From assembly GCF_025685425.1 (NCBI RefSeq), contig NZ_JAGTAS010000033.1:1-45848 (forward strand): a stretch of 45,848 bases of DNA, written 5' to 3'. The notes beneath the pieces were generated by a model. That model searched no databases. It was not told where the DNA came from and saw only the letters and a program-made list of their open reading frames with translations. Within the stretch, counting starts at the first letter, position 1, and every line of letters begins with the position of its first letter. Below, one piece after another: positions 1 through 45,848 of the stretch. Both the position numbers and the translations under genes were made by a program. The DNA comes from Terriglobus albidus (GTDB lineage Bacteria; Acidobacteriota; Terriglobia; Terriglobales; Acidobacteriaceae).

Positions 1-113
1 GTCAAACGGGCATGATGGTGATAGTCCATCTGGCCTCCGAAGATTTTGGATTGCTCTCACAATCAGCTTCTTCGTTCTCGGTCAGATGGACAATAACCTA
101 TTGAAACTTCACA
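1..113 (-). mobile_element. 5' end of an IS481-like insertion sequence (left copy, runs off the window)
   Basis: Positions 1-113 are the reverse complement of 45722-45834 at the other edge of the window. Read on the minus strand the element begins TGTGAAGTTTCAATAGG at 113, and an ATG at 29 opens a frame reading MDYHHHARLT before the window ends. That start resembles the N-terminus of IS481-family transposases (M-x-x-H-x-N/H-A-R-L-T). The TGT terminus also fits that family. Homology between the two copies stops exactly at 113, which defines the IS end. The adjacent host DNA is the remaining half of a GCGGCTTTAGCCGC hairpin. Only the 5' end is present, so completeness and activity cannot be judged. 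Confidence 0.75.
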
Positions 114-256
114 TTTAGCCGCTGAGGTCAAATTTCCGATATCGGCCTCAGCGGCTAAAGCCGCATGTATTTAGTGCCGGGACGGGACGGCTGAAGCCGT
201 CCCCTTAAGCAAGGCATTCGCACCATGCGGTGCGAAACGGTTGCGCGCCGCGCAAC
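114..256. repeat. Hairpin-repeat cluster 1 (family A, partly destroyed by the IS)
   Basis: Beside the IS end lies the right half of an A1 hairpin (TTTAGCCGCTGAGGTC), then an intact inverted A1 (CTCAGCGGCTAAAGCCGC, about 148-165), an A2 hairpin (GGGACGGCTGAAGCCGTCCC, from 184), the fixed linker CTTAAGCAAGGCA, and the third hairpin TTCGCACCATGCGGTGCGAA ending at 235. A further 8-bp stem (GTTGCGCG/CGCGCAAC) spans 240-256. The cluster lies 3' of the Rieske oxidoreductase gene and may help end its transcript, although no U-tract is seen. Confidence 0.85.
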
Positions 257-1950: not shown

Positions 1951-2205
1951 GTGCCCCATGTCCGCTAGGGGACATGGGTATTCGCGCTATGCGCGAACTG
2001 GGTGGGAGCCGTGGGCTTTTAGCCCACGGTGTATAGGCTCAATAGAAATGGGCTTTAAGCCCTGGGTTCCTCTGTCCATCAAGAAAAGGCCCAGGGAGAA
2101 TTTGTCAACACGCTCTAAGTTTGACCTCAGCGGCTAAAGCCGCCTTCTTTCAGACGTCAATGCGGGACGGCTGAAGCCGTCCCCTTAAGCAGGGCGGACA
2201 GGGCG
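1951..2205. repeat. Hairpin-repeat cluster 2 (families D, C and A)
   Basis: In order: a D-like hairpin CCCATGTCC/GGACATGGG (1955-1978), the TTCGCGCTATGCGCGAA hairpin (about 1981-1997), a C-type hairpin around CCGTGGGC/GCCCACGG (about 2009-2029), a shortened C core (GGGCTTTAAGCCCTGGG and CCCAGGG), then A1 (2123-2143) and A2 with its CTTAAGC linker (2164-2190). It separates the 5' end of the Rieske oxidoreductase gene from the 3' end of the DUF262 gene. Confidence 0.85.
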
Positions 2206-3599: not shown

Positions 3600-3832
3600 C
3601 GCGATAACCCCTGCCCCGGGCGCCCATGTCCCTCGGGGACATGGGCTCGCCTTACCCTTCTCAACCGATGTTAGGGATATAGAAATACGGTCGCGCCAAG
3701 CGCGATACCCCACCCTTCGCGATGAAACCGCGAAGAATGGGGCAACGAGTGTCTACTGCGGCCGGATTCATCGATACGTCCCAGCAAACCTTAAGCACCG
3801 AAATCTCGCCCAGCACGGACGAGATTTCGGTG
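3600..3832. repeat. Cluster of intergenic hairpins (D-like and unclassified)
   Basis: The 451 bp between the DUF262 start and the next stop codon hold no convincing gene. They contain a GCCCATGTCC/GGACATGGGC hairpin (3622-3646), a short TCGCG/CGCGA stem (3691-3705), a 14-bp stem with one mismatch, CCCCACCCTTCGCG/CGCGAAGAATGGGG (3708-3742), and the long terminator-like hairpin listed separately. Confidence 0.6.
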
Positions 3833-7599: not shown

Positions 7600-7852
7600 G
7601 GTGGGAGCAGCGGGCTTCAGCCCGCTGATAAAAGCATCAAAAGAAATTGGGCTTTAGCCCTGGGCCTTCTCTATGCGTCAGGAAAAAGGCCCAGGGCTAA
7701 AGCCCATCTCTATATTGAGCCGATAGTCCGCGGGCTGAAGCCCGCGTCTCCCACCCAATTCGAGCTTCGCTCGAAGGTCCGATGTCCCATGAGGGACACC
7801 ACCCCAACGAACTTGTTCGTTGGGGACTCCGGACATGGGACACCCGATGCAT
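7600..7852. repeat. Hairpin-repeat cluster 4 (complete family C element plus nested family D)
   Basis: The best-preserved C element lies at about 7602-7757. It starts GGTGGGAGC and ends CTCCCACC. Inside are an AGCGGGC-TTCA-GCCCGCT hairpin, a central 20-bp inverted repeat (AAGGCCCAGGGCTAAAGCCC and its complement), and a CGCGGGC-TGAA-GCCCGCG hairpin. After it come TTCGAGC/GCTCGAA and a D hairpin CCCCAACGAAC/GTTCGTTGGGG, itself enclosed by TGTCCCATG/CATGGGACA arms. The cluster ends just before the 3' end of the winged-helix regulator gene. Confidence 0.9.
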
Positions 7853-11823: not shown

Positions 11824-12655
11824 GGGCACCGGTGTCTCCAACGAATGTGTTCGTTGGGGGTGAAGATGCGTTCTATATCAGCCTGGGGCTGAAGGCCAGC
11901 TCTATAGTTCTGAAGGCGAATTTGTCGATAAGTCCTAGCCTTGCCTCAGCGGCTAAAACCATACTCTTTTGCACCTTGTAAGACACGGCTTCAGCCGTGT
12001 CCTTAAGCAAGGCATTCGCGCTCTGCGCGAACGGGTGGGAGCCACGGGCTTCAGCCCGTGGTCTATCGGCTCAATATCGAAATGGGCTTTATCAGCGGGC
12101 TGAAGCCCGCTGCTCCCACCGAAAAGCAAGCGCTTAACTAAAGGGGAAACGAGAAAGAAGTTTCTAAATTCACTGGGGTTTGTCTATCGCTGCTGGGCAA
12201 GCGCTGAAGGCGCGTTCTATACCAGCCTAGGGCAACGCCCTAGGTTCGACGCACCCACAAAGTGTTAAAGGGCTGAAGGCCCGCTCTATAGTTCATTCGT
12301 CTCTATGCCCACAGTCTCGCCCTCAGCGGCTAAAGCCGCGTTGCTTTTGGGTGTCTGTATGGGACGGCTGAAGCCGTCCCCTTAAGCAAGGCATTCGCGC
12401 TATGCGCGAACGGAGCTGCCGCTCGAATGGTTCAACCAACATTCACTGGATCGTCGCTACCGCTCATGATCAACATCGGTGGAAAGTCTTTGCTCACATC
12501 GTTCGTAGGGCCATTTTTTCTTTCCGTCTAATTCTTTCGCTGCTAGTCAATTGGGAACTATGGGGCGGGCCTTCAGCCCTTTAACACTTTGTGGGTGCCG
12601 GATACCTGGGGCGTTGCCCCAGGCTGGTATAGAGCGCACCTTCAGCGCTTCTCCT
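11824..12655. repeat. Hairpin-repeat cluster 5, the longest (families A, B, C and D)
   Basis: More than 800 bp of modules fill the gap after the STAS gene. They include a D hairpin (CCAACGAATGTGTTCGTTGG), B modules (GGGCTGAAGG with CTCTATAG), A units at about 11943-12030 and 12312-12412 (the first with a GACACGGC-type A2 stem), a short C element GGTGGGAGCC to GCTCCCACC (about 12034-12119), further B modules around CCTGGGGC/GCCCCAGG, and an inverted B pair near 12555-12650. No supported ORF is present. Confidence 0.85.
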
Positions 12656-18827: not shown

Positions 18828-19092
18828 TAAACCGTGGACTAAAGTCCACGGCTCCCACCCGTTCGCGCATTAGCGCGAATGTATTGCTTAAGCGCATGGC
18901 TTCAGCCATGCCGTACCAGAGCCTAGAAGAGGCGCGGCTTTAGCCGCTGAGGTCATAGCTTTGGTACCTCAGCGGCTAAAGCCGCTTGCTTTAAGATGCC
19001 GATATGGGACGGCTGAAGCCGTCCCCTTAAGCAAGGCATTCGCGCTATGCGCGAACGGGAGCATCAACGGGATGAAGCCCACTGCTCCCACC
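18828..19092. repeat. Hairpin-repeat cluster 6 between convergent genes (families C and A)
   Basis: In order: a C-type hairpin CCGTGGAC-TAAA-GTCCACGG ending CTCCCACC, the TTCGCGC/GCGCGAA hairpin, a variant A2 stem (GCATGGC-TTCA-GCCATGC), an intact inverted pair of A1 hairpins separated by TCATAGCTTTGGTAC (about 18936-18985), a standard A2 plus linker and third hairpin, and a C end CTCCCACC. The intact A1 pair is the undisturbed counterpart of the sequence at the two IS481 insertion points. Confidence 0.88.
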
Positions 19093-20369: not shown

Positions 20370-20642
20370 CGAAGCTCCCGTTCGCGCATAGCGCGAATGT
20401 CTTGCTTAAGGGGACGGCTTCAGCCGTCCCGCATAGAGGTCAATGAGATGGCGGCTTTAGGCGCTGAGGGCAAGATTGGGGCGTATTGACGAATCCCACC
20501 CTCACTGCAGAACTATAGAGCGGGCCTTCAGCCCTTTAACACCTATGAGCACCTAACCTGGGGCGTGCCCCAGGCTGGTATAGAGCGCGCGTTTCCACCC
20601 CAATGAACAAGTTCATTGGGGACCCCGGCCTTCAGCGCTTCT
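20370..20642. repeat. Hairpin-repeat cluster 7 (families A, B and D)
   Basis: A reversed A unit (TTCGCGCATAGCGCGAA, GGGACGGCTTCAGCCGTCCC, degenerate A1 GCGGCTTTAGGCGC) is followed by a B pair (GGGCCTTCAGCCC; CCTGGGGCGTGCCCCAGG). Within the second B arm sits an inserted D hairpin, CCCCAATGAAC/GTTCATTGGGG, that splits the usual TATAGAGCGCG from CCTTCAGCGC. The interruption shows D modules inserting into B modules. Confidence 0.85.
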
Positions 20643-22495: not shown

Positions 22496-22803
22496 TATAG
22501 AACGGGCCTTCAGCCCTTTAAGTTCTTGTGAGCACTGTAACCTGGGGCGCTGCCCCAGGCTGGTATGGAGCGCGCCTTCAGCGCTCTATCAGCGGGCTGT
22601 AGAGGCTGCGGAAAAACTCCGTAAGCGAGATTGATCGGCTCAATTTCGGGGATAGAAAATCATCACCCAACATCCACGGATCGCTTATAGGGCATTCTGA
22701 CGCGATCTATTTGCACTTTTTGAAAAATCGACTTTTCCGCAGTCTCTGAAGCCCACTGAGCACTCCAGCCAGCAAAGCTGGCTAGGGACCGCGCTGCTCC
22801 CAC
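22496..22803. repeat. Hairpin-repeat cluster 8 (families B, C and D) interrupted by a MITE-like insert
   Basis: B modules (GGGCCTTCAGCCC; CCTGGGGCGCTGCCCCAGG; GCGCGCCTTCAGCGC) are followed by a C hairpin AGCGGGCTG that is split by the 145-bp insert and resumes as AAGCCCAC. A D hairpin (CCAGCCAGCAAAGCTGGCTAGG) and the C end GCTCCCACC follow. Confidence 0.85.
22602..22746. mobile_element. 145-bp MITE-like element with terminal inverted repeats, inserted in a C hairpin
   Basis: The left end GAGGCTGCGGAAAAACTC (22602-22619) and the complement of the right end, GAGACTGCGGAAAAGTCG, form imperfect terminal inverted repeats. The interior has no ORF. The host hairpin normally reads AGCGGGCTGAAGCCC; here it is broken after GGGCTG. 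No clear target duplication longer than 2-3 bp is visible. It is probably a non-autonomous derivative or remnant of an IS with such ends; the parent transposase is not in the window. Confidence 0.6.
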
Positions 22804-23475: not shown

Positions 23476-26400
23476 CTATTGCACGTTGAGCTGCAGATCT
23501 GTGGAATGCGAGTCAGGGCCGGCCGTCACCGTGACGGTTATGGTGTAATTCTTTGCAGCCTGGCCGAAGAATCCGTTGCCCGATCCGCATCCGGTCAAGC
23601 CGGCCATCGCCGCGAGTGTTCCCACAACAACGAACAGGATTGCCAGATGTCCGATCAGCTTTCTGCGTGCCCGGCGGAACCGGTACGCAAACGGAAGCAG
23701 CAGAGCTGCCCAGGCTACCGGCGGCAGACCATTGCTGTGACCAGCTGGTTCAGGGGCCACCGCGGCCGTCTGTCCCGGAACATGGAAGATGAGCGAGACA
23801 TTATCCAGTGTCGTCGTAGCAGGAACCTGCCATGAGGTTGCACTCAGTTGCGTCCACGGCTTCGTGGCCAGCTCCGCGGTTGCACCCTGCGGCAAGCCAG
23901 TAACGGTAAGCGTCGCCGCAACCGGGAAGCTGGTTCCAGTGGTCGGAGCAATGGCTACCTGGTACGTCGCCGAGTTACCGGGAATAACTGTTTGCGATGC
24001 GCCGCTCCCTACCGCCTTGAGCGAGAAGTCGATGACGCTCTGCGTGACGACGTTGGCCGTTGCCGCCACGTAGTTCGCATCTCCGCTATAGACGGCGGTG
24101 ATGGAATGGCTTCCGGTTGCAAGAGCAGAGGTGGTCAACGATGCAACACCGTTGCTCAGAGCCGCTGTTCCCAACAAGGTGCTGCCATCCATAAAGCTGA
24201 TGCTGCCCGTAGGCTGCGTTGTCGTAGAGACAACGGCAGAGGTCAAGGTGACGGTGTCCTGCAGCATGCTCGTATTCACGCTGGAAGTAAGCGTGATCCC
24301 CGGCGCACCCTTTGCGGCGTTTCCACTCTCCGGCAGCAGCGCGGAGATGCCGCCGTCCGCGGTAATGCTCATGATGCCGGACCGCAAGCCATTGCCGGTG
24401 GGTGTGAAGTTGATCGTGATCGTGCAGCTTGCCTGTGCGGCCAGAGTTGCCGGGCAGGTTGTGGTGAACGGGAACTCTGTCGCATTCGTTGTACCGATCG
24501 CCAGATGAGTCAGCGGAAGAGCCGAGCCCGTGTTCCGGATCGTCACCGTCTGCACCGTCCCGGTACCCACCGATGTCACCGAGAAGCTGACCTGAGGAAC
24601 GGAGATATCAATCCCAGGCGGAATCGCAGACGCCGAGACCGCAACTACACCGACAGTTGAGGACGACGTCGAAGCTGTGTTTGCCTGAATCGCCTGGGCT
24701 GCCTGTGCGTGCGGCCGCATCACGCTGCCACCCGTAACCGCGATACTTGTTCCTGAAGAGAACGTCACCGTTCCCGTAATGGCGCCAGTGCTTGCCGGTG
24801 TCACCGTAATATCGATCGTGCAGGAGGCGCCATTGGCCAGCGACGTACCGCAATTATCCGTCTCAGTGAACTGACCGCTGGGCGTAATCACCAGGTTGTT
24901 CAAGGCCTGGCCGGTATTATTCGTCAGCGTTGCCGTCTGTGAGGTGGAATGCTTACCGATGGTCTGCACGCCGAAGTTCATCACCGGCGGAGTAAGAGTC
25001 AAACCATAAGGACTGCCATCCCCCGCAAGCGAAACCTGCTGCGTACCTCCGCCGGCGTTGTCGGTGATGGTCAACACTCCAGTGCGATGCCCTAACGCCG
25101 TCGGCACAAAACGCACCGTCAGCGTGCAGAAGCCTCCCACCGGCACCGTCGCACCGCAGTTGTCTGTCTCTGTAAAGTCGCCCTGGATGTTGAAGCCGCC
25201 AATCTGCAGCGGAACATTCCCGCTGTTGGTCAGCGTCACACTCAGCGCCGTTCCCGTAGCCTGCGAGGTCGACACATAAGGATAGCTTCCGAATGCCAAA
25301 CTGGTCGGGAAGACGGTGACGCCCGCCTGTTGCCCAACACCGCTCACTGAGATCAGATGGATGCCATCCACATTGTTCGCGATCTGAATAACTCCCGTCC
25401 GAGTTCCGATGGTCGTCGGGGTCATCGTGACGCTCAGGATGCAGTAGCCGCCCACCGGCACAGCGCTCGCGGTGCAGGTATCTGTCTCAGCAAAATCTCC
25501 GGTTGCATTGATTGCCGTAATCTGCAGCGGCGTCGATCCTGTATTCCATACCGTTACCGTCTGTGCCTGGCTGGCAGTGCCTACAGGCAGGCTGCCGAAG
25601 AAGACCGTTGAAGGCAAAATCGCTATACCAGGAAGCGTTCCCTGGCCGCTCAGCGCCACGACCGTCGAGACCTGACCGGACGCATCGCTGAACTGCAGTG
25701 AGCCATACAAAGATCCCGTCGCAGTCGGCGCAAAGCTCACGCTGATCAGGCAGGAGCCACCTACCGGCAACACCGCCGGGCACTGATCTGACTCAACAAA
25801 GTTGTTCGACACGGCGATCGGGTTCAGAGTCAGCGGCGTCGTACCCGTGTTCTTCGCCGTCACGGTCTGCGCCATGCTGACGGTGTTGACGACCTGCGCG
25901 CCAAAGAGCAGGAACGACGGTGTCATCGTAACGCCCGCATTCGTGCCCTCTCCCTGCAGCGTCACCATCTGCGAACCCGCCGTATCACTGATGGCGACCG
26001 TGCCCTTCAACAATCCGGTGGACGCGGGTGTGAAGGTGACATTGATGCTGCAGCTTGCGCCTGCCGCGATCTGTCCCGTGCAGTTGGTCGTATCCGCGAA
26101 GTTCGAGGTCGTCGTTACGGAGTTAATCGTTACCGGACCGGTGCCGGTATTCGTAAAGATCACGGTTTGCGCCAGCGAGGACGTATTGACCGGCCTGCCG
26201 CCAAACAGCAGGTCTGCCGTGCTGAGAGTTGCTCCGGGAACCAGACCGGTACCCGTCAATGAGATTGTCTGCGAACCCTTGCTGTCACTTACGGTCAGTA
26301 CACCGGATTCAGCCCCCGCAATCTTCGGTGCATACACCACGTTGATCGTGCAGCTTGCACCTGCATCCAGTGAAGCCGGGCAGTTATTGGTCTGCGCGAA

Positions 26401-29400
26401 ATCGCCGGCGATGCCGAAGCTAATTCCAGTAAGAGCCGCATTGCCTGTATTGGTCAGCGTCGCCGTCAACGGCTGGCTGGTAGAGCCGACCAGAGTTGCC
26501 GGAAATGCCTGAGCGCCTGGAGTCAACGACACACCCGCCTCTGTTCCCGTACCGGAGAGATTCACGACCTGGCTTTGACCGCCCGCATTATCCGTCAACG
26601 TAAGAGTTCCCGTCCGGCTGCCGATTGCAGTCGGCGTAAAGTTCACGGTCAAGCTGCAGTTGCTGCCTGCCGGCACCGTCGCGCACTTACCCGTCGTTGC
26701 GAAATCGCCTGTCGTCGCAATGTTTGAGATCACGAGTGGAGCCGTGCCTGTATTGCGGATCGTCAGCGTTTGCCCCGTGCTAGGCGTGGAAACCACTTCA
26801 CTGCCAAAGCCCAGTGCAGCCGGGGAGACCTGGATGCCGGGCGCGGTTCCGATACCTGTCATCGGCACAGTCTGCGCGACATTCGACTGAGCATTGGTGA
26901 TGGTCAAAGCCTCCGCGCGCGATCCGGCGACCGTCGGTGTGAAGGTCACATTCACGCTGCAGTTCGCCTGCGGCGCAATCACAGTACACGCGCTTGCCGC
27001 GTGGAAGTCACCGTTTGCCTGAATGCCGGTGATAGTCACCGGAAATGCATTGGGATTGGTAATGATGAGCGTCTGCGCAAGGCTAGTGGTGCCAACGGGC
27101 TGATTGAGGAAGTTCAAAGCCGTGAGGCTGAGGTTCAGTGCCGCACCCACGCTCGTGACGCTCTGCGTCACCTGTGAAGCCGCAAGATAGTTGCTGTTCC
27201 CTGCCTGGTTCGCTTCAACAACGACTGGGCCCACACCTGCGATCGTCAACTGACTGCCGCTGATTGACCCAGGACCAGAAAGGACGCTGAAGATAACCGG
27301 ATTCCCCGATGCTCCGCCGGTTGCGGACAACGAAAGCACTCCGCTTCCATAGATCACCTGGGCCGGCAAGGCGGCAAAGGTAATGCTCTGCGCCGCCGGT
27401 GCAATCACCAGAGTTCCGGTTACGGTGCCGCTGTAGTTGGCATCGTTGATGGTGGCCACCATGGTGTAGCTGCCGGCAGCCGTTGGAGCCGTCGCGCCAC
27501 CGTTATAGGTCGTGGTCACTGAGAGGCCCGAGGGCGAGGTGGTCACCGTGCCCGTTTGGGTAGATCCGGTATAGGTGAGGTTCAGATTGCTGAGCGTCAC
27601 TGTTGCGGTCGCTTGGTTCACAGCGAACGTCTGCGCGCTACCGGTCACGGCTGCGTAGTTCGTACCTGCAGTGGCGCTCGCCGTCAAAGAGCAGATACCC
27701 ACGCCAACGTAGCGCACGGTGCCGCCAGTGAGCGTGCAGACGCTGGTGGTGTTAGAAGTTACTGACGTTGTTCCATCGCCCGTGTAGCTGAACGTCGGAA
27801 TGAAATCATGATCGTAGATCCCGCTGGCCGGAAGATTCGAGATACTGATCGTCGGAGTCGCCTGGCCAACTGAGAAAGTCTGCGCTGTACCCGTCACCGC
27901 CGCGTAATTCGTGCCTGCCGTCGCGCTGGCTGTCAAAGAGCAGATACCCACGCCAACGTAGCGCACAGTGCTGCCGATGAGTGTGCAGACGCTGGTGGTG
28001 TTAGAAGTTACCGACGTTGTTCCATCGCCCGTGTAGCTGAACGTCGGAATGAAATCGTGACCGTAGATCCCGCTGGCTGGAAGATTCGAGATACTAATCG
28101 TAGGCGTTGCCTGGCCAACTGAGAAGGTCTGGGCCGTGCCGGTAACGGCTGCATAGTTGGTGCCTGCCGTCGCGCTGGCTGTCAAAGAGCAGGTGCCCAC
28201 GCCAACGTAGTGCACCACACCACTTGTCACCGTGCAGACGCTGGTCGAGTTCGAGCTGACTGAAGTCGTTCCGTCACCCGTATAGCTGAACGTTGGTGTA
28301 AAGCTGCCGCCATAAGTTCCACTGGCAGGAAGATTCGAGATACTGATCGTCGGCGTACCCTGACCGACAGAGAAGGTCTGCGCCGAGCCAGTCACGGCGT
28401 TGTAATTGGTGCCTGCCATCGCACTCGCCGTCAACGAGCAGGCGCCAGTGCCAACGTAATGCACCACGCCGCTGGTTACGGTGCAGATGCTGGTCGAGTT
28501 CGAGCTCACCGAAGTTATGCCATCACCCGTATAGCTGAACGTTGGTGTAAAGCTGCCGCCGTAGCTTCCGCTCGCCGGAACGTTTGAGATGCTGATCGTC
28601 GGCGTTGCCTTTCCTACGGAGAAGGTCTGTGCCGAACCGGTCACCGCTCCATAGTTTGTGCCCGCCGTTGCACTTGAAGTCAGTGAGCAGGTACCGACTC
28701 CGACGTACTGCACCATACCGCTGGACACAGTACAAACACTGGTTGAGTTCGAGCTCACTGAGGTCGAGCCATCACCGGTGTAGCTAAAGATCGGAGTGAA
28801 GCTGCCGCCATAGGTGCCGCTGGCCGGTAGATTCGAGATACTGATTGTCGGAGTCGCCTGGCCAACGGAAAATGTCTGCGCGCTTCCCGTCACGGCCGCA
28901 TAGTTCGTGCCCGCCGTGGCACTCGCTGTCACCGAACAGGTGCCCGTACCAACGTAATGCACCACACCACTGGTCACCGTGCAAACACTCGTCGAGTTCG
29001 AGCTCACCGAGCTCGTGCCATCACCTGTATAGCTGAACGTCGGCGTAAAGCTGCCGCCATAGGTTCCGCTGGAAGGCAGGTTCGAGACACTGATGGTCGG
29101 TGTTGCCTGGCCGACCGTGAAAGTTTGCGCTGTACCTGTGGTTGCGTTGTAGTTGGTTCCCGCTGTCGCACTCGCCGTCAGCGAGCACGTACCTGTACCA
29201 ACGTAGTGCACCACGCCGCTGGTCACGGTGCATACACCGGTCGAGTTGGAACTCACCGATTTCGTACCATCACCGGTGTAGCTGAACGCCGGCGTAAAGC
29301 TGCCGCCATAGGTTCCGCTGGCAGGCAGATTGGAGATCGAGATCGTCGTCGATTGCTTTGAGGACACCGTGATCGACGTCGTCGTCTCCGCATCGTCCGA

Positions 29401-30684
29401 AGTGTTCAGCGTCGTATCGATCTGTGAGGCCGACACCAGGCCGTAGAAAGAGTCGGTATATGTTCCTACGGTCGACGGGATTCCGGTCTGGAAGGTCATG
29501 TCCGCCGAACCGCCGGCGGGAACCGTAAAGGTCCCTGACCAGATCAATGTGCTTCCACTGATTGTTGGATCGGAGATAGCTGCTCCTGCAAAGGTGGAGC
29601 TGCCGTTAATGTAGTTCTCCGCCGCCGGCGAGCTTGCCAGGGCATCGATGAATTCATCCAGAGAAGCATCGGTCGTACCCGAATTGGTGATATGCACCGT
29701 ATAGGTCGCAGTGCCGCCGCTAAGCCCGAATGAGGTTGGCGTCACCGACATTGACAGCAGCAACGTATTGCTTGCGGCTTGAATGGGTGGAATATTTCCC
29801 AGGGACGAGACGGTGGTGTGTTTGATCTGCGAACCGCTATTGATATAAGCAATCGGTTGCACCGACGTCGTGGTGGACGTCGTCCCCGTCACCTGGTAGG
29901 TGTACGTCACCGTGTAGTCGGCGCTGGCGATCGCTGACATGACCGACGTAGGAATCTGCAGCATGTCGGTGTACGTCCCGGTTCCACCGTTGCTGAAGGT
30001 AAGACTGGTTTTGGTAAGCCGGAAGGCGTTCGACGGGAAGCTGCTGCTTGTCTGAGGGCTAAGGGCGAAGATATTGCTCCCGCCAATGCTTCCAGTCGAG
30101 CCGCTAACCGTCACAGTGAAGGTGCTGCCCACCGAAGGTGTAGTCGTCGAAACACTGCCGCTGTTCACCTTATTCGCGCTTGCCGCAATCGTGTCATAGA
30201 CCGTCATGTCGTTCGTGGTCAACGAGGCAAGCAGGTTGGCGGTGGGGGGTCCTAAATAGACGTCGGCCGTGGCTGACTGGGGTGAAGAGATGTTGCAGTT
30301 GCCGCTGGTAAAGCTGGAGCAATCCACATTCAGGAAAAAGTAAGCCGCCTTAGTAGCCCCCGCGGCCAGCGATCCCAGATGCGCCGCGCCGGTGTCGTTC
30401 CCTCCCAGGGAGAGGTAGACGGTGCTCCCGGCGAAATTGCCGAGCGTAACCCAAACATCCGACAGAGCGGTCGAGTTGTTGTTGGTGATGTTGTAGACAG
30501 CGTAAAAACCAGTGGGGTAAGGAGAGGTCTTCGTATCGACGTAGTAGACGCTGCTGAAGTTCTGGGTGATCGTGATGCCATTCTGAGTCGTGGATGATCC
30601 CAGCACTGCATACGCGCTGCTGCTTAGACACACCATCATCCACAAGATCGCCATCAAGCTGATGACGGCTGACTTTCTGATCAT
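23476..30684 (-). CDS. Giant (2402-aa) secreted/surface protein with Ig-like and choice-of-anchor-D repeats
   Basis: A signal peptide (MIRKSAVISLMAILWMMVCLSSSAYA) is followed by an N-terminal domain of about 270 aa, a DUF11-like domain (LSMSVTPTSFGLSGGTATYTV), seven 83-aa repeats (TPTISISNLPASGTYGG; each with two Cys in VCTV and GTCSL), an MBG-like domain (LTYTGSTQTGTVTTSPSG), nine choice-of-anchor-D/ASH repeats of about 100 aa (GVTMTPSFLLFG to VALSGQG) and an Ig_3-like domain (ISFMDGSTLLGTAALSNG). The tail has a hydrophobic helix VAWAALLLPFAY, an RFRRARRK stop signal, a second helix and LTGCGSGNGFFGQ. The likely role is an adhesin or matrix protein on the cell surface. GGGAG precedes the ATG. 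Confidence 0.88.
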   Translation of the reverse strand: MIRKSAVISLMAILWMMVCLSSSAYAVLGSSTTQNGITITQNFSSVYYVDTKTSPYPTGFYAVYNITNNNSTALSDVWVTLGNFAGSTVYLSLGGNDTGAAHLGSLAAGATKAAYFFLNVDCSSFTSGNCNISSPQSATADVYLGPPTANLLASLTTNDMTVYDTIAASANKVNSGSVSTTTPSVGSTFTVTVSGSTGSIGGSNIFALSPQTSSSFPSNAFRLTKTSLTFSNGGTGTYTDMLQIPTSVMSAIASADYTVTYTYQVTGTTSTTTSVQPIAYINSGSQIKHTTVSSLGNIPPIQAASNTLLLSMSVTPTSFGLSGGTATYTVHITNSGTTDASLDEFIDALASSPAAENYINGSSTFAGAAISDPTISGSTLIWSGTFTVPAGGSADMTFQTGIPSTVGTYTDSFYGLVSASQIDTTLNTSDDAETTTSITVSSKQSTTISISNLPASGTYGGSFTPAFSYTGDGTKSVSSNSTGVCTVTSGVVHYVGTGTCSLTASATAGTNYNATTGTAQTFTVGQATPTISVSNLPSSGTYGGSFTPTFSYTGDGTSSVSSNSTSVCTVTSGVVHYVGTGTCSVTASATAGTNYAAVTGSAQTFSVGQATPTISISNLPASGTYGGSFTPIFSYTGDGSTSVSSNSTSVCTVSSGMVQYVGVGTCSLTSSATAGTNYGAVTGSAQTFSVGKATPTISISNVPASGSYGGSFTPTFSYTGDGITSVSSNSTSICTVTSGVVHYVGTGACSLTASAMAGTNYNAVTGSAQTFSVGQGTPTISISNLPASGTYGGSFTPTFSYTGDGTTSVSSNSTSVCTVTSGVVHYVGVGTCSLTASATAGTNYAAVTGTAQTFSVGQATPTISISNLPASGIYGHDFIPTFSYTGDGTTSVTSNTTSVCTLIGSTVRYVGVGICSLTASATAGTNYAAVTGTAQTFSVGQATPTISISNLPASGIYDHDFIPTFSYTGDGTTSVTSNTTSVCTLTGGTVRYVGVGICSLTASATAGTNYAAVTGSAQTFAVNQATATVTLSNLNLTYTGSTQTGTVTTSPSGLSVTTTYNGGATAPTAAGSYTMVATINDANYSGTVTGTLVIAPAAQSITFAALPAQVIYGSGVLSLSATGGASGNPVIFSVLSGPGSISGSQLTIAGVGPVVVEANQAGNSNYLAASQVTQSVTSVGAALNLSLTALNFLNQPVGTTSLAQTLIITNPNAFPVTITGIQANGDFHAASACTVIAPQANCSVNVTFTPTVAGSRAEALTITNAQSNVAQTVPMTGIGTAPGIQVSPAALGFGSEVVSTPSTGQTLTIRNTGTAPLVISNIATTGDFATTGKCATVPAGSNCSLTVNFTPTAIGSRTGTLTLTDNAGGQSQVVNLSGTGTEAGVSLTPGAQAFPATLVGSTSQPLTATLTNTGNAALTGISFGIAGDFAQTNNCPASLDAGASCTINVVYAPKIAGAESGVLTVSDSKGSQTISLTGTGLVPGATLSTADLLFGGRPVNTSSLAQTVIFTNTGTGPVTINSVTTTSNFADTTNCTGQIAAGASCSINVTFTPASTGLLKGTVAISDTAGSQMVTLQGEGTNAGVTMTPSFLLFGAQVVNTVSMAQTVTAKNTGTTPLTLNPIAVSNNFVESDQCPAVLPVGGSCLISVSFAPTATGSLYGSLQFSDASGQVSTVVALSGQGTLPGIAILPSTVFFGSLPVGTASQAQTVTVWNTGSTPLQITAINATGDFAETDTCTASAVPVGGYCILSVTMTPTTIGTRTGVIQIANNVDGIHLISVSGVGQQAGVTVFPTSLAFGSYPYVSTSQATGTALSVTLTNSGNVPLQIGGFNIQGDFTETDNCGATVPVGGFCTLTVRFVPTALGHRTGVLTITDNAGGGTQQVSLAGDGSPYGLTLTPPVMNFGVQTIGKHSTSQTATLTNNTGQALNNLVITPSGQFTETDNCGTSLANGASCTIDITVTPASTGAITGTVTFSSGTSIAVTGGSVMRPHAQAAQAIQANTASTSSSTVGVVAVSASAIPPGIDISVPQVSFSVTSVGTGTVQTVTIRNTGSALPLTHLAIGTTNATEFPFTTTCPATLAAQASCTITINFTPTGNGLRSGIMSITADGGISALLPESGNAAKGAPGITLTSSVNTSMLQDTVTLTSAVVSTTTQPTGSISFMDGSTLLGTAALSNGVASLTTSALATGSHSITAVYSGDANYVAATANVVTQSVIDFSLKAVGSGASQTVIPGNSATYQVAIAPTTGTSFPVAATLTVTGLPQGATAELATKPWTQLSATSWQVPATTTLDNVSLIFHVPGQTAAVAPEPAGHSNGLPPVAWAALLLPFAYRFRRARRKLIGHLAILFVVVGTLAAMAGLTGCGSGNGFFGQAAKNYTITVTVTAGPDSHSTDLQLNVQ
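24325..27155 (-). repeat. Nine about 300-bp choice-of-anchor-D/ASH domain repeats in the giant gene
   Basis: Nine diverged copies of an about 100-aa unit share the order FG-x-x-x-V-x-x-x-S-x-x-QT-x-T-x-x-NTG, GDF, C, AG-x-x-C-x-I-x-V-x-FTPT, G-x-x-x-G-x-L-x-I-x-D, GTG. Each carries two Cys that could form a disulfide. Divergence is greater than in the 83-aa array, so this block is older. Confidence 0.8.
27612..29355 (-). repeat. Seven tandem 249-bp repeats in the giant gene
   Basis: Seven head-to-tail copies of an 83-codon unit (TPTISISNLPASGTYGGSFT, then FSYTGDGTTSVSSNSTSVCT, ending TFSVGQA). The two copies nearest the C-terminus share GIYGHDFIP/GIYDHDFIP and are nearly identical, the mark of the most recent duplication. 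Such arrays change copy number readily by slippage or recombination. Confidence 0.9.
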
Positions 30685-33104: not shown

Positions 33105-33425
33105 TTCGCTCCTCCGACAGATCCGGACCTCAGCGGCTAAAGCCGCACATCTTTCCCCCTTGAATCGGCACGGCTAAAGTCGTGCCCGTAAGCAAAACCA
33201 AGCGCCTTTGGCGCTAGGCAAATAGACCCCGCAAGACATCGCCTCACGAGGCAATTCCTACGGCACCCCCTGATAGAGATGAAGTGCTTCGAGCACGCTC
33301 AATCAGCCGTTGCGCGTGGCGCGACCAGTTCGCACCGAAGGTGCGAATGCCTTGCTTAAGGGGACGGCTTCCAGCCGTCCCGTATGAAGCTGTAAGGACG
33401 TGCGGCTTTAGCCGCTGAGGTCGGA
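33105..33425. repeat. Hairpin-repeat cluster 9 (two facing family A units)
   Basis: A forward A unit (A1 from about 33129; A2 variant GGCACGGC-TAAA-GTCGTGCC with a G-T pair) faces a reversed A unit (TTCGCACCGAAGGTGCGAA, GGGACGGCTTCCAGCCGTCCC with an enlarged loop, and GCGGCTTTAGCCGC, 33333-33421). It lies between the murJ promoter and the 3' end of the ADOP permease gene. Confidence 0.85.
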
Positions 33426-38221: not shown

Positions 38222-38757
38222 ATACGATGTAACCCACGCAATGGGTGGGATATTCGGGTTCCCGCAACTGGGTGGAAGCAGCGGGGTCCCCAATCAGCTT
38301 TGCTGGTTGGGGTGTTCAGCGGGGTCCCTAACCAGCTTTACTGGTTGGTGTTCAGCGGGCTTCAGTCACTGATAAAGCGCTGAAGGCGCGTTCTATACCA
38401 GCCTGGGGCAACGCCCCAGGTTTGACGCCCACAAGATGTCAGAGGGCTGAAGGCCCGCCCTATATAAGGGCTTCAATCCGACCGTATCGTTCGATGGTTC
38501 ACGAACAGTTTCGTTTGTGACGATTGGGGATTATAGATCGGGCCTTCAGCCCTCTTACCGTTTCCCTATCTCCATACCTGGGGCGTTGCCCCAGGCTGGT
38601 ATGGGTCGCGCCTTCAGCGCTCAAGACATCTTTCTTGCTCAATAAGGAACAAGCTTTAGCCTGGCTTTCTCTTTCTACAGGGGAAAGCCCATGGCCAAAT
38701 CCCGTTTCAGTATTGAACCGATGGACCGTGGGCTTAAAGCCCACGGCTCCCACCCAA
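38222..38757. repeat. Hairpin-repeat cluster 10 between convergent genes (families D, C and B)
   Basis: The 554-bp gap after the esterase holds two D hairpins with different stems, CCAATCAGCTTTGCTGGTTGG and CCAACCAGCTTTACTGGTTGG (38290-38347), nested in C-type AGCGGG sequence. Next is a B pair facing an inverted B pair (GCGCTGAAGGCGC, CCTGGGGCAACGCCCCAGG, GGGCTGAAGGCCC; 38370-38620), then a C hairpin CCGTGGGC/GCCCACGG ending GGCTCCCACC at 38757. No gene is present. Confidence 0.88.
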
Positions 38758-38766
38758 TCCCACTCA

Positions 38767-42861: not shown

Positions 42862-43202
42862 TGTTCGAGCGAAGCTCGATTCGGTGGGAGCATCGGGGTC
42901 CCCGGCCAGCGTTGCTGGCTGGGGTAAAGGCGTGGGCTTTCAGCCCACGGTGTATCGGCTCAATATGAAATGGGCTTTAGCCGTGGCTTTTTCCTCGCGT
43001 ACAGAGGAGGCCCAGGGCTGAAGCCCGTCTATTTTTACGCCTGTATCAGCGGGCTGAAGGCCGCTGAACACCCCATCCAGCAAGGCTGGATGGGGACCCC
43101 GCTACTCCCACCAGTTTCAGTCATCCTCTGTCAGATCAACTGAATTTGTCGATACGCCGTGGTTACTAGTTGGTCTCCAGCGAATAGGTTCGCTGGAGAC
43201 CG
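42862..43202. repeat. Hairpin-repeat cluster 12 (expanded C element with nested D hairpins)
   Basis: A C element runs from GGTGGGAGC (about 42884) to CTCCCACC (about 43111). Nested D hairpins near each end have different stems: CCAGCCAGCGTTGCTGGCTGG and CCATCCAGCAAGGCTGGATGG. Inside are CGTGGGCTTTCAGCCCACG, a diverged GGCCCAGGGCTGAAGCCC core and AGCGGGCTGAAGG. A separate D hairpin TCTCCAGCGAATAGGTTCGC, then TGGAGA, lies at about 43175-43200. Confidence 0.87.
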
Positions 43203-43814: not shown

Positions 43815-44125
43815 GAGAAGCGCTGAAGGCGCGTTCCATATCAGCCTGGGGCAACGCCCGAGGTATCGGGTGCATTGAACGATGAAGGGCTGAAGGCGCG
43901 CTCTATAGTTCGGAATCCCAGGAGCCTTTACAGGTCGAGGTTATCCAATACATTGACCTCAGCGGCTGAAGCCGCTTGTTTGCTGCTTCTCTACGGGACG
44001 GCTGAAAGCCGTCCCCTTAAGCAAGGCATTCGCACCTCTGGTGCGAACCGGCTGCACTGTGTGCAGCCGGCAATCGGGTCCTTCGCTCAACCCCAGTCAG
44101 CAAAGCTGGCCGGGGACCCCATTCA
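43815..44125. repeat. Hairpin-repeat cluster 13 (families B, A and D)
   Basis: A B pair (GCGCTGAAGGCGC with CCTGGGGCAACGCCC; GGGCTGAAGGCGCGC with CTCTATAG; 43819-43909) is followed by an A unit (A1 with a TGAA loop; A2 with TGAAA loop; CTTAAGCAAGGCA linker; TTCGCACCTCTGGTGCGAA; about 43954-44048), a GCTGCAC/GTGCAGC hairpin, and a D hairpin CCCCAGTCAGC/GCTGGCCGGGG. This is the only cluster flanked by two gene 5' ends. Confidence 0.85.
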
Positions 44126-44201: not shown

Positions 44202-44308
44202 AGCATTTTCCCTGTAGGTGTAGTCCAGAGCATCCGCGTCTAGGGCGTTTCCGCAATGAAAACGCCGCTGCACGTCCCTTCGGGGTACCCAGCGACAGGG
44301 AAAATGCT
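44202..44308. mobile_element. 107-bp MITE-like palindromic element abutting the GH27 start
   Basis: A perfect 14-bp inverted repeat AGCATTTTCCCTGT (44202-44215)/ACAGGGAAAATGCT (44295-44308) bounds a non-coding segment. Inside is a second stem GGCGTTT/AAACGCC. It ends 15 bp before the GH27 ATG, so it lies in the 5' leader and could form a large hairpin there or bring promoter signals. It differs from the TGAA-loop repeats. Confidence 0.6.
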
Positions 44309-44323
44309 CTACGATGGCGTCGC

Positions 44324-45639: not shown

Positions 45640-45721
45640 GATTCGCACCGAAGGTGCGAACGTTTTGCTTAAGGGACGGCTTCAGCCGTCCCTACGGAGG
45701 CGCATTGGTCGCGGCTTTAGC
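45640..45721. repeat. Hairpin-repeat cluster 14 (family A, cut by the right IS copy)
   Basis: A reversed A unit has TTCGCACCGAAGGTGCGAA, the linker TTTTGCTTAAG, A2 GGGACGGCTTCAGCCGTCCC, and then GCGGCTTTAGC, where the A1 hairpin stops and the IS begins. Confidence 0.85.
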
Positions 45722-45848
45722 TGTGAAGTTTCAATAGGTTATTGTCCATCTGACCGAGAACGAAGAAGCTGATTGTGAGAGCAATCCAAAATCTTCGGAG
45801 GCCAGATGGACTATCACCATCATGCCCGTTTGACAGTGCGTGGTCGAG
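45722..45848 (+). mobile_element. 5' end of an IS481-like insertion sequence (right copy, runs off the window)
   Basis: The element starts TGTGAAGTTTCAATAGG at 45722. An ATG at 45806 opens MDYHHHARLTVRGR, resembling the N-terminus of IS481-family transposases, and continues past the window edge. The 113 bases shared with the left edge match in inverted orientation. Host DNA immediately before it is GCGGCTTTAGC, half of an A1 hairpin. Confidence 0.78.

Follow-up and report, generated by a model that had tools for sequence, protein, structure and literature searches.

A multi-hairpin intergenic repeat of Terriglobus albidus is very probably the end sequence of a RAYT-type Y1 transposase cassette

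In a stretch of 45,848 nucleotides from Terriglobus albidus (called the window below), a composite unit of consecutive hairpins, Family A, recurs between genes, and its stems differ from copy to copy by paired substitutions. What is this repeat, and what keeps its hairpins? A first-pass annotation of the same DNA offered two answers: the structure itself is under selection, or the hairpins are required by a machinery that mobilises them. The second is now strongly supported, by a RAYT-family Y1 transposase gene flanked by the unit. We consider it very likely that Family A, a composite REP/terminal inverted repeat, forms the ends of the cassette of a RAYT-type Y1 transposase, an HUH enzyme acting on single strands, and that the scattered copies, often head-to-head, are its non-autonomous REPIN-like derivatives. 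On this reading, an abundant intergenic repeat of this bacterium gains a likely enzyme.

Copies and anatomy of Family A

The unit was found, in full or in part, at all 10 places that the first-pass annotation had named (one range and nine other positions), and these hold 11 units, the place at 18936 being a head-to-head pair (Table 1). The window contains 9 occurrences of an 18-nt linker pattern with up to three mismatches, where shuffled sequences give an expectation of 0.02. A covariance model of the unit gave one weak partial match in the window at 7606-7661, within hairpins of another family (family C). All 11 units lie outside the gene calls, which were our choice among the open reading frames and cover 84% of the window, leaving 16%.

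Table 1. Family A units and accompanying elements in the window
Positions	Strand	Feature	Basis
1-113		Insertion-sequence end, not Family A; sits in the A1 hairpin loop	Junction with A1, shared contig ends
114-127	-	Truncated inverted A1, head-to-head partner of the 146-236 copy; adjoins the insertion-sequence end	
146-236	+	Full unit: A1, spacer, A2 (184-203), linker, A3 (217-236, TTCGCACC form)	
240-256	+	Fourth hairpin, GTTGCGC/GCGCAAC	
2125-2201	+	A1, spacer, A2 and linker, without A3	
11944-12031	+	Unit with A2 GACACGGC, A3 TTCGCGC and degraded A1; family C hairpins follow	
12321-12410	+	Full unit, A3 of the TTCGCGC form	
18862-18952	-	Full unit, A2 GCATGGC; left half of head-to-head pair	
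18967-19055	+	Full unit; right half of head-to-head pair, centre GAGGTCATAGCTTTGGTACCTC	
20381-20469	-	Full unit, A3 of the TTCGCGC form	
33128-33215	+	A1, A2 (GGCACGGC, one mismatch in the partner arm), linker variant, other third hairpin AGCGCC TTT GGCGCT	
33329-33420	-	Full unit, A3 of the TTCGCACC form; tail-to-tail with the 33128-33215 copy	
43957-44047	+	Full unit, A3 of the TTCGCACC form; fourth hairpin next, at 44048-44070	
45642-45721	-	Unit whose A1 is interrupted by an insertion-sequence end of the type seen at the window start	
12200-12244	-	Acido-Lenti-1	Rfam
22541-22585	+	Acido-Lenti-1	Rfam
38376-38420	-	Acido-Lenti-1	Rfam
38577-38621	+	Acido-Lenti-1	Rfam

From 5' to 3', the unit consists of CCTCAGCGGC-TAAA-GCCGC (A1), a spacer, A2 (an 8-bp stem with a TGAA-type loop), the linker CTTAAGCAAGRCA and usually a third hairpin, A3. 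The spacer measures 19-21 nt in 86 of 90 copies and is mostly variable in sequence, its last bases usually being TAC or TAT. The third hairpin is also variable and usually begins with TTCG; the TTCGCGC and TTCGCACC forms dominate, as the first-pass annotation had them, and ATCGCGC and unrelated hairpins exist besides. Its description of linker and loop as fixed did not hold strictly, since GGCATT alternates with GACATT and the loops are TAAA, TGAA or TGAAA. Nor is a three-part design supported as the defining feature: in relatives the common core is two hairpins, with the third absent, replaced or placed after another linker, and within the window the 2125 copy lacks A3 and the 33128 copy has a different third hairpin. 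A further, fourth hairpin comes after TTCGCACC-type tails in 18 of 39 cases and after TTCGCGC-type tails in 6 of 52. The core is A1, spacer, A2 and linker, and the third hairpin is a variable add-on.

In the whole genome (6.1 Mb in 58 contigs), a 17-nt linker pattern with up to two mismatches matched 96 times, against once for the reversed pattern. The covariance model that the first-pass annotation had suggested was built from 90 copies, spanning A1 to the start of A3 only, and was searched against the source genome and others, 61 genomes in all. In the source genome it found at least 150 copies, the best 150 of 3208 candidates having been scored and all 150 passing. Among these 150 listed copies, 109 have a neighbour within 400 bp, and the 55 close pairs comprise 31 head-to-head, 22 tail-to-tail and 2 same-direction pairs; inverted doublets thus predominate (53 of 55), and Family A copies cluster as REPINs do. 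Random placement gave 1.8 close pairs (maximum 7 in 500 trials), and placement confined to intergenic DNA like that of the window gave 5.6 (maximum 13). The model ends are 13-26 nt apart in 22 of the 31 head-to-head pairs, and a centre like GAGGTCATAGCTTTGGTACCTC is common to several of them.

The assembly is broken at both window ends by an insertion sequence, ends of this type being found at window positions 1-113 and 45722-45848 and at the ends of contigs C22, C26, C28, C31, C32, C40, C41 and C53. At nine of ten junctions the insertion is in the A1 loop (GCTAAA or its complement), and the tenth is TCTAGT; an eleventh row, from genome G002, was taken for a chance match and not counted. The insertion sequence probably belongs to the IS481 family, a call made on a 42-residue fragment from the other kind of contig end, and both kinds would be ends of one element, because their terminal bases are similar. 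IS481 elements favour NCTAGN targets. The position of nine of the ten junctions seen might suggest that this element itself spreads the unit, an idea that we find scarcely credible and rejected: only A1 is touched, and such an end lies within 120 nt upstream in just 6 of the 104 collected copies. Family A units look like targets of the IS481-type element.

Covariation of the stems

That changes on one arm are mirrored on the other, as first noted from the window, was confirmed by measuring covariation over 90 copies against 500 shuffles. The sample was drawn from 104 collected rows, leaving out 7 without a recognisable A1, 4 with A1 cut by the insertion sequence, 1 overlapping duplicate, 1 broken copy and 1 with an extra base in A2. 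Stem cells were paired in 98.4% of cases versus 93.0% in the shuffles, and 48 cells were changed on both sides versus 10.6, a number that none of the 500 shuffles reached; when the partner was slid by 1-3 columns as a control, doubly changed cells numbered at most 7. The count of further pair types was less clear (13 versus 10.9, with 13 of the 500 shuffles reaching 13). Four of the five covariation measures were reached by no shuffle, and the fifth, the number of pair types, is weaker. We read the stem changes as non-independent events, most of them from about six A2 stem types.

Real covariation in intergenic copies, several of which lie downstream of stop codons, is what would be seen if Family A were a structured RNA element (sRNA, mRNA stabiliser, attenuator or terminator) with stems kept by selection on the transcript. 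Yet no Family A unit of the window matches Rfam at the gathering score, the only Rfam matches of the window being a tRNA and Acido-Lenti-1. The consensus after A2 has no T-run, and the window copies lie on either strand, between convergent, tandem and divergent genes. The stem cells of the 90 copies contain 6 GT wobbles and 19 mismatches beside 48 compensated Watson-Crick changes, whereas selection on RNA would tolerate G-U, and because of these numbers a DNA palindrome fits better than an RNA helix. A transcript would also leave the inverted pairs and the transposase flanks unexplained. We rejected a structured RNA as the identity of Family A and regard it as improbable.

The same scarcity of wobbles among many compensated cells could come from mutational palindrome correction, in which template switching between the arms during replication gives mirrored changes and covariation needs no function. 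GC-CG swaps make up 34 of the 48 doubly changed cells and wobble intermediates are few, as copying of one arm onto the other predicts. This process leaves the copy number, the near-fixed spacing, the inverted pairing and the association with a transposase unexplained, and we regard it as possible but rather unlikely as the explanation of the covariation. It is compatible with Family A being a transposase end and could act alongside.

A Y1 transposase gene between inverted units

The genome contains 10 matches to Y1_Tnp. One of these genes, on contig C37 (35104-35541, minus strand) and so outside the window, lies between two inverted Family A units. Its protein matched the NCBIfam model for REP-associated tyrosine transposases (NF047646) at 112.4 bits, above the cut-off of 80, and the solved E. 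coli TnpAREP (PDB 4er8) with an E-value of 1.6e-10; by Pfam it shows only the Y1_Tnp domain. In its family the first histidine of MPDHIH is invariant and the second is present in at least 90% of rows, and the tyrosine of YIAQNP is invariant in 18 of 18, which gives both the HUH motif and the tyrosine that we take to be the catalytic residues. Among five gene copies from three genomes, dN/dS was 0.05-0.15 in all 10 pairs; the gene is under purifying selection. Judged by its sequence, it is a RAYT.

Among the other Y1 genes, one on C48 and one on C28 have family B hairpins at their ends, family C is found at the ends of the C34 gene and CCCAGGTCCC..GGGACCTGGG at those of the C32 gene; at the ends of the remaining ones no match to the hairpin families of the window was noted. 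Family C (CAGCGGGC/GCCCGCTG, and CCGTGGGC/GCCCACGG with CTCCCACC) occurs in the window at 7608-7775, 12042-12112, 18832-18851, 38726-38763 and 42919-43095 and resembles the ends of the C34 gene (L035), the second to match the RAYT model. Hairpins of the type GCCCATGTCC/GGACATGGGC at 1955-1978 and 3622-3646 of the window resemble the CCCAGGTCCC/GGGACCTGGG ends of the C32 gene (L037).

Close copies of the C37 gene (88-94% identical) are present in two other species, three times in G002 and once in G015, and have Family A ends as well. The G015 copy has two whole ends and each G002 copy has one, its other end being cut in a hairpin loop (A1 once, A2 twice) by the same foreign sequence, and more than one inserting element seems to target hairpin loops. 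This foreign sequence starts with CAGTTTGCGGAAAAAC (L141, L142; transposase copies near 5756761, 5760046 and 5797322).

Inverted hairpins also make up most of the ends at 20 transposase loci drawn from 20 genomes (43-100% identity). Only G000, G002 and G015 showed the linker CTTAAGCAAG, the others having a tail such as CTTCCGAAAG; one locus with a tail of the latter kind (L110) has its own TCGCGC/GCGCGA hairpin next. An inverted A1 with up to two edits lies upstream of the gene in 13 of the 20. At the other side of the gene, the stop codon TAA falls inside the A1 loop in 8 of the 20 (CTC AGC GGC TAA, with C-termini LSG or LRG), and in 7 an A1-like stretch is read in another frame, frame 0 in six and frame 1 in one; three of these 7 are loose matches with 4-5 edits, and most of the frame-0 loci have PQRLKP-like C-termini. 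In the remaining 5, A1 was not found in the range searched, and the proteins of two loci (L109, L113) hold PQRLKP or PQGLKP further in. The DNA is kept while the reading frame changes, which speaks for the importance of the hairpin and not of the peptide: a DNA hairpin is retained although its own gene reads it in different frames.

Inverted ends are widespread beyond these loci. An exact inverted match of at least 12 nt between the two flanks was present at 45 of 54 distinct acidobacterial loci, the genome studied here included (47 of 57 before removal of three loci present twice; 58 were tried, one having too short a flank). Shuffled flanks gave such a match in 0.4% of cases and flanks of different loci in 34%, the latter presumably due to conservation of A1. 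When stems were compared across relatives, a palindromic hairpin was present at 77 of 116 sides, a figure that is no test of covariation because the hairpins had been picked for palindromicity.

The number of repeats follows the gene. The transposase score correlated with repeat number with a rho of 0.69 over 61 genomes and of 0.69 in 19 genomes of the genus, phylogeny being ignored, and correlations across types were also positive (0.57-0.59). At least 10 listed repeats were present in 18 of the 21 genomes whose transposase match reached 90 bits versus 6 of 40 others (Fisher 9e-8, with both cut-offs set after seeing the data and the kinship of the genomes ignored), and within the family in 17 of 20 genomes with a strong match versus 5 of 17. 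All these repeat counts are lower bounds, up to 78 best candidates having been scored in each genome.

Could the transposase have landed by chance between two repeats that something else had spread? In the source genome at least 150 repeats stand against a single such gene, and G012, an assembly in 720 contigs, has at least 24 copies, the best as good as those of the source genome, and no close transposase. Repeats without a strong transposase match also occur in G004 (at least 37), G017 (at least 22), G023 (at least 31) and G051 (at least 58); G006 has at least 37 copies and a transposase gene only in two pieces; and in G019, G026 and G031 the gene is accompanied by few repeats among the matches listed (4, 2 and 1, respectively). 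Against chance stand the matching ends that the gene has of its own in relatives of many genera, its stop codon or C-terminus formed by A1 in many of them, and the co-occurrence of repeats and gene. On these grounds chance landing was rejected, and we hold it to be somewhat less probable even than a structured RNA.

If Family A is the end of the transposase cassette, movement may proceed as follows. In single-stranded DNA, for example at a replication fork, A1 and A2 would fold as hairpins, which the transposase would bind; its tyrosine would cut near the conserved CTTAAGCAAG tail, and the paired unit would be moved or copied in trans into intergenic DNA. We infer movement by the transposase. 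Orthologous gaps in G002, G012 and G015 (identity about 83-90%) hold different sets and orientations of repeats, and repeats do turn over between species; in these gaps, whose alignment is unreliable base by base, no clean empty site and no precise excision or insertion was visible. In the three species with the cassette, at least one of the genes close to it is shared, so the transposase gene may be mostly inherited in place.

Two further repeats were seen alongside. A repeat of about 107 bp (L024:1323-1428) is matched many times among the hits listed for each of G002, G012 and G015, and once, at 79%, in the window at 44207-44310. Seven 249-nt tandem repeats (27564-29357) lie in a 2402-residue reading frame of the window (23476-30684, minus strand); in G002 the orthologous stretch can be aligned in many registers, and the repeat number may differ.

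Acido-Lenti-1 and comparison with known systems

The family B hairpin of the window is Acido-Lenti-1 (Rfam RF01687) at the gathering score. Rfam classes this family as an sRNA, and it is entered as a probable RNA in a table of PMC2864571. It was found in inverted orientation on both sides of an IS200/IS605-type Y1 gene at 9 of 19 loci (Acido-Lenti-1 loci include L239, L240, L241 and L251) and on one side at 3 more, flank matches being counted at an E-value of up to 0.01 and some lying below the gathering score; at 7 of the 19 it was not found. Three or more copies were present in 24 of 25 genomes with the gene versus 8 of 36 without it, with phylogeny ignored and with copy counts that are lower bounds (up to 83 best candidates scored in each genome). 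Acido-Lenti-1 is probably the transposon end of another Y1 transposase, which suggests that at least one Rfam family consists of transposon ends mistaken for RNA. A similar check may be in order for other RNA candidates that were proposed on covariation alone.

More broadly, we put at about even chances the view that Acidobacteriota have, throughout the phylum, a class of RAYT elements whose ends consist of two hairpins at a set spacing, with no GTAG needed for recognition and with the inner hairpin doubling as the 3' end of the transposase gene. The same view holds that certain acidobacterial families listed as 'structured RNA', beginning with Acido-Lenti-1, would not be RNAs but Y1 transposon ends that fold as single-stranded DNA. 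In Family A, nature provides a test case for how a transposase acting on single strands reads two hairpins when no GTAG guides it.

The first-pass annotation knew no named element of this design. In kind, Family A falls among the REP, REPIN and TIR repeats of RAYTs; as a family, it was not found described in the literature searched. With IS200/IS605 elements it shares a Y1 transposase and end hairpins, which in those elements are recognised as single strands. It differs from them in having inverted units as ends and at least 150 dispersed units to one gene in the source genome.

As REPINs and RAYTs are portrayed by Bertels and Rainey (PMC3116915), they and Family A share a RAYT-type transposase, many dispersed short palindromes and intergenic inverted doublets with a short spacer. 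In contrast to the single REP described there, half of a Family A doublet contains two to four hairpins and lacks a GTAG foot, and its A1 overlaps the 3' end of the transposase gene. In 90 copies, the A2 foot was GTAC in 22, ATAC in 11, CTAC in 8, GTAG in 1 and GTGG in none, and the A1 foot is CTCA; the GTAG or GTGG at the 5' foot of the hairpin, by which the GTAG class of REPs is recognised, is not characteristic of Family A.

In TIRtrons and TIRYTs, as presented in PMC3733652, a tyrosine transposase likewise lies between inverted repeats that are also dispersed in the genome, and the C37 gene is bounded in just this way. The motif GGGGWSAS, reported there in the majority of cases and not in all, is absent from the Family A consensus, the nearest stretch by inspection being GGGGACGG on the reverse strand. 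The same source sets apart a sharply delimited group of TIR-associated transposases in Acidobacteria (T. saanensis, K. versatilis, A. capsulatum and G. mallensis), with which Family A was compared by description, the named species not being among the 80 of 483 loci listed. In the classification of PMC6006769, TnpAREP proteins have the same HUH-Y1 core as the C37 transposase, genes of subclass 2.6 and class 3 are reported to be flanked by atypical structures repeated in the genome, and 20 of 26 TIRYTs fall into subclass 2.1, which has a C-terminal HTH; the C37 transposase differs from this subclass in showing only Y1_Tnp by Pfam. We place Family A outside both described classes because it has neither the GTAG foot nor GGGGWSAS. 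In operation it resembles a REPIN/RAYT system and in layout a TIRtron: it is RAYT-associated, REPIN/TIR-like DNA without a GTAG foot.
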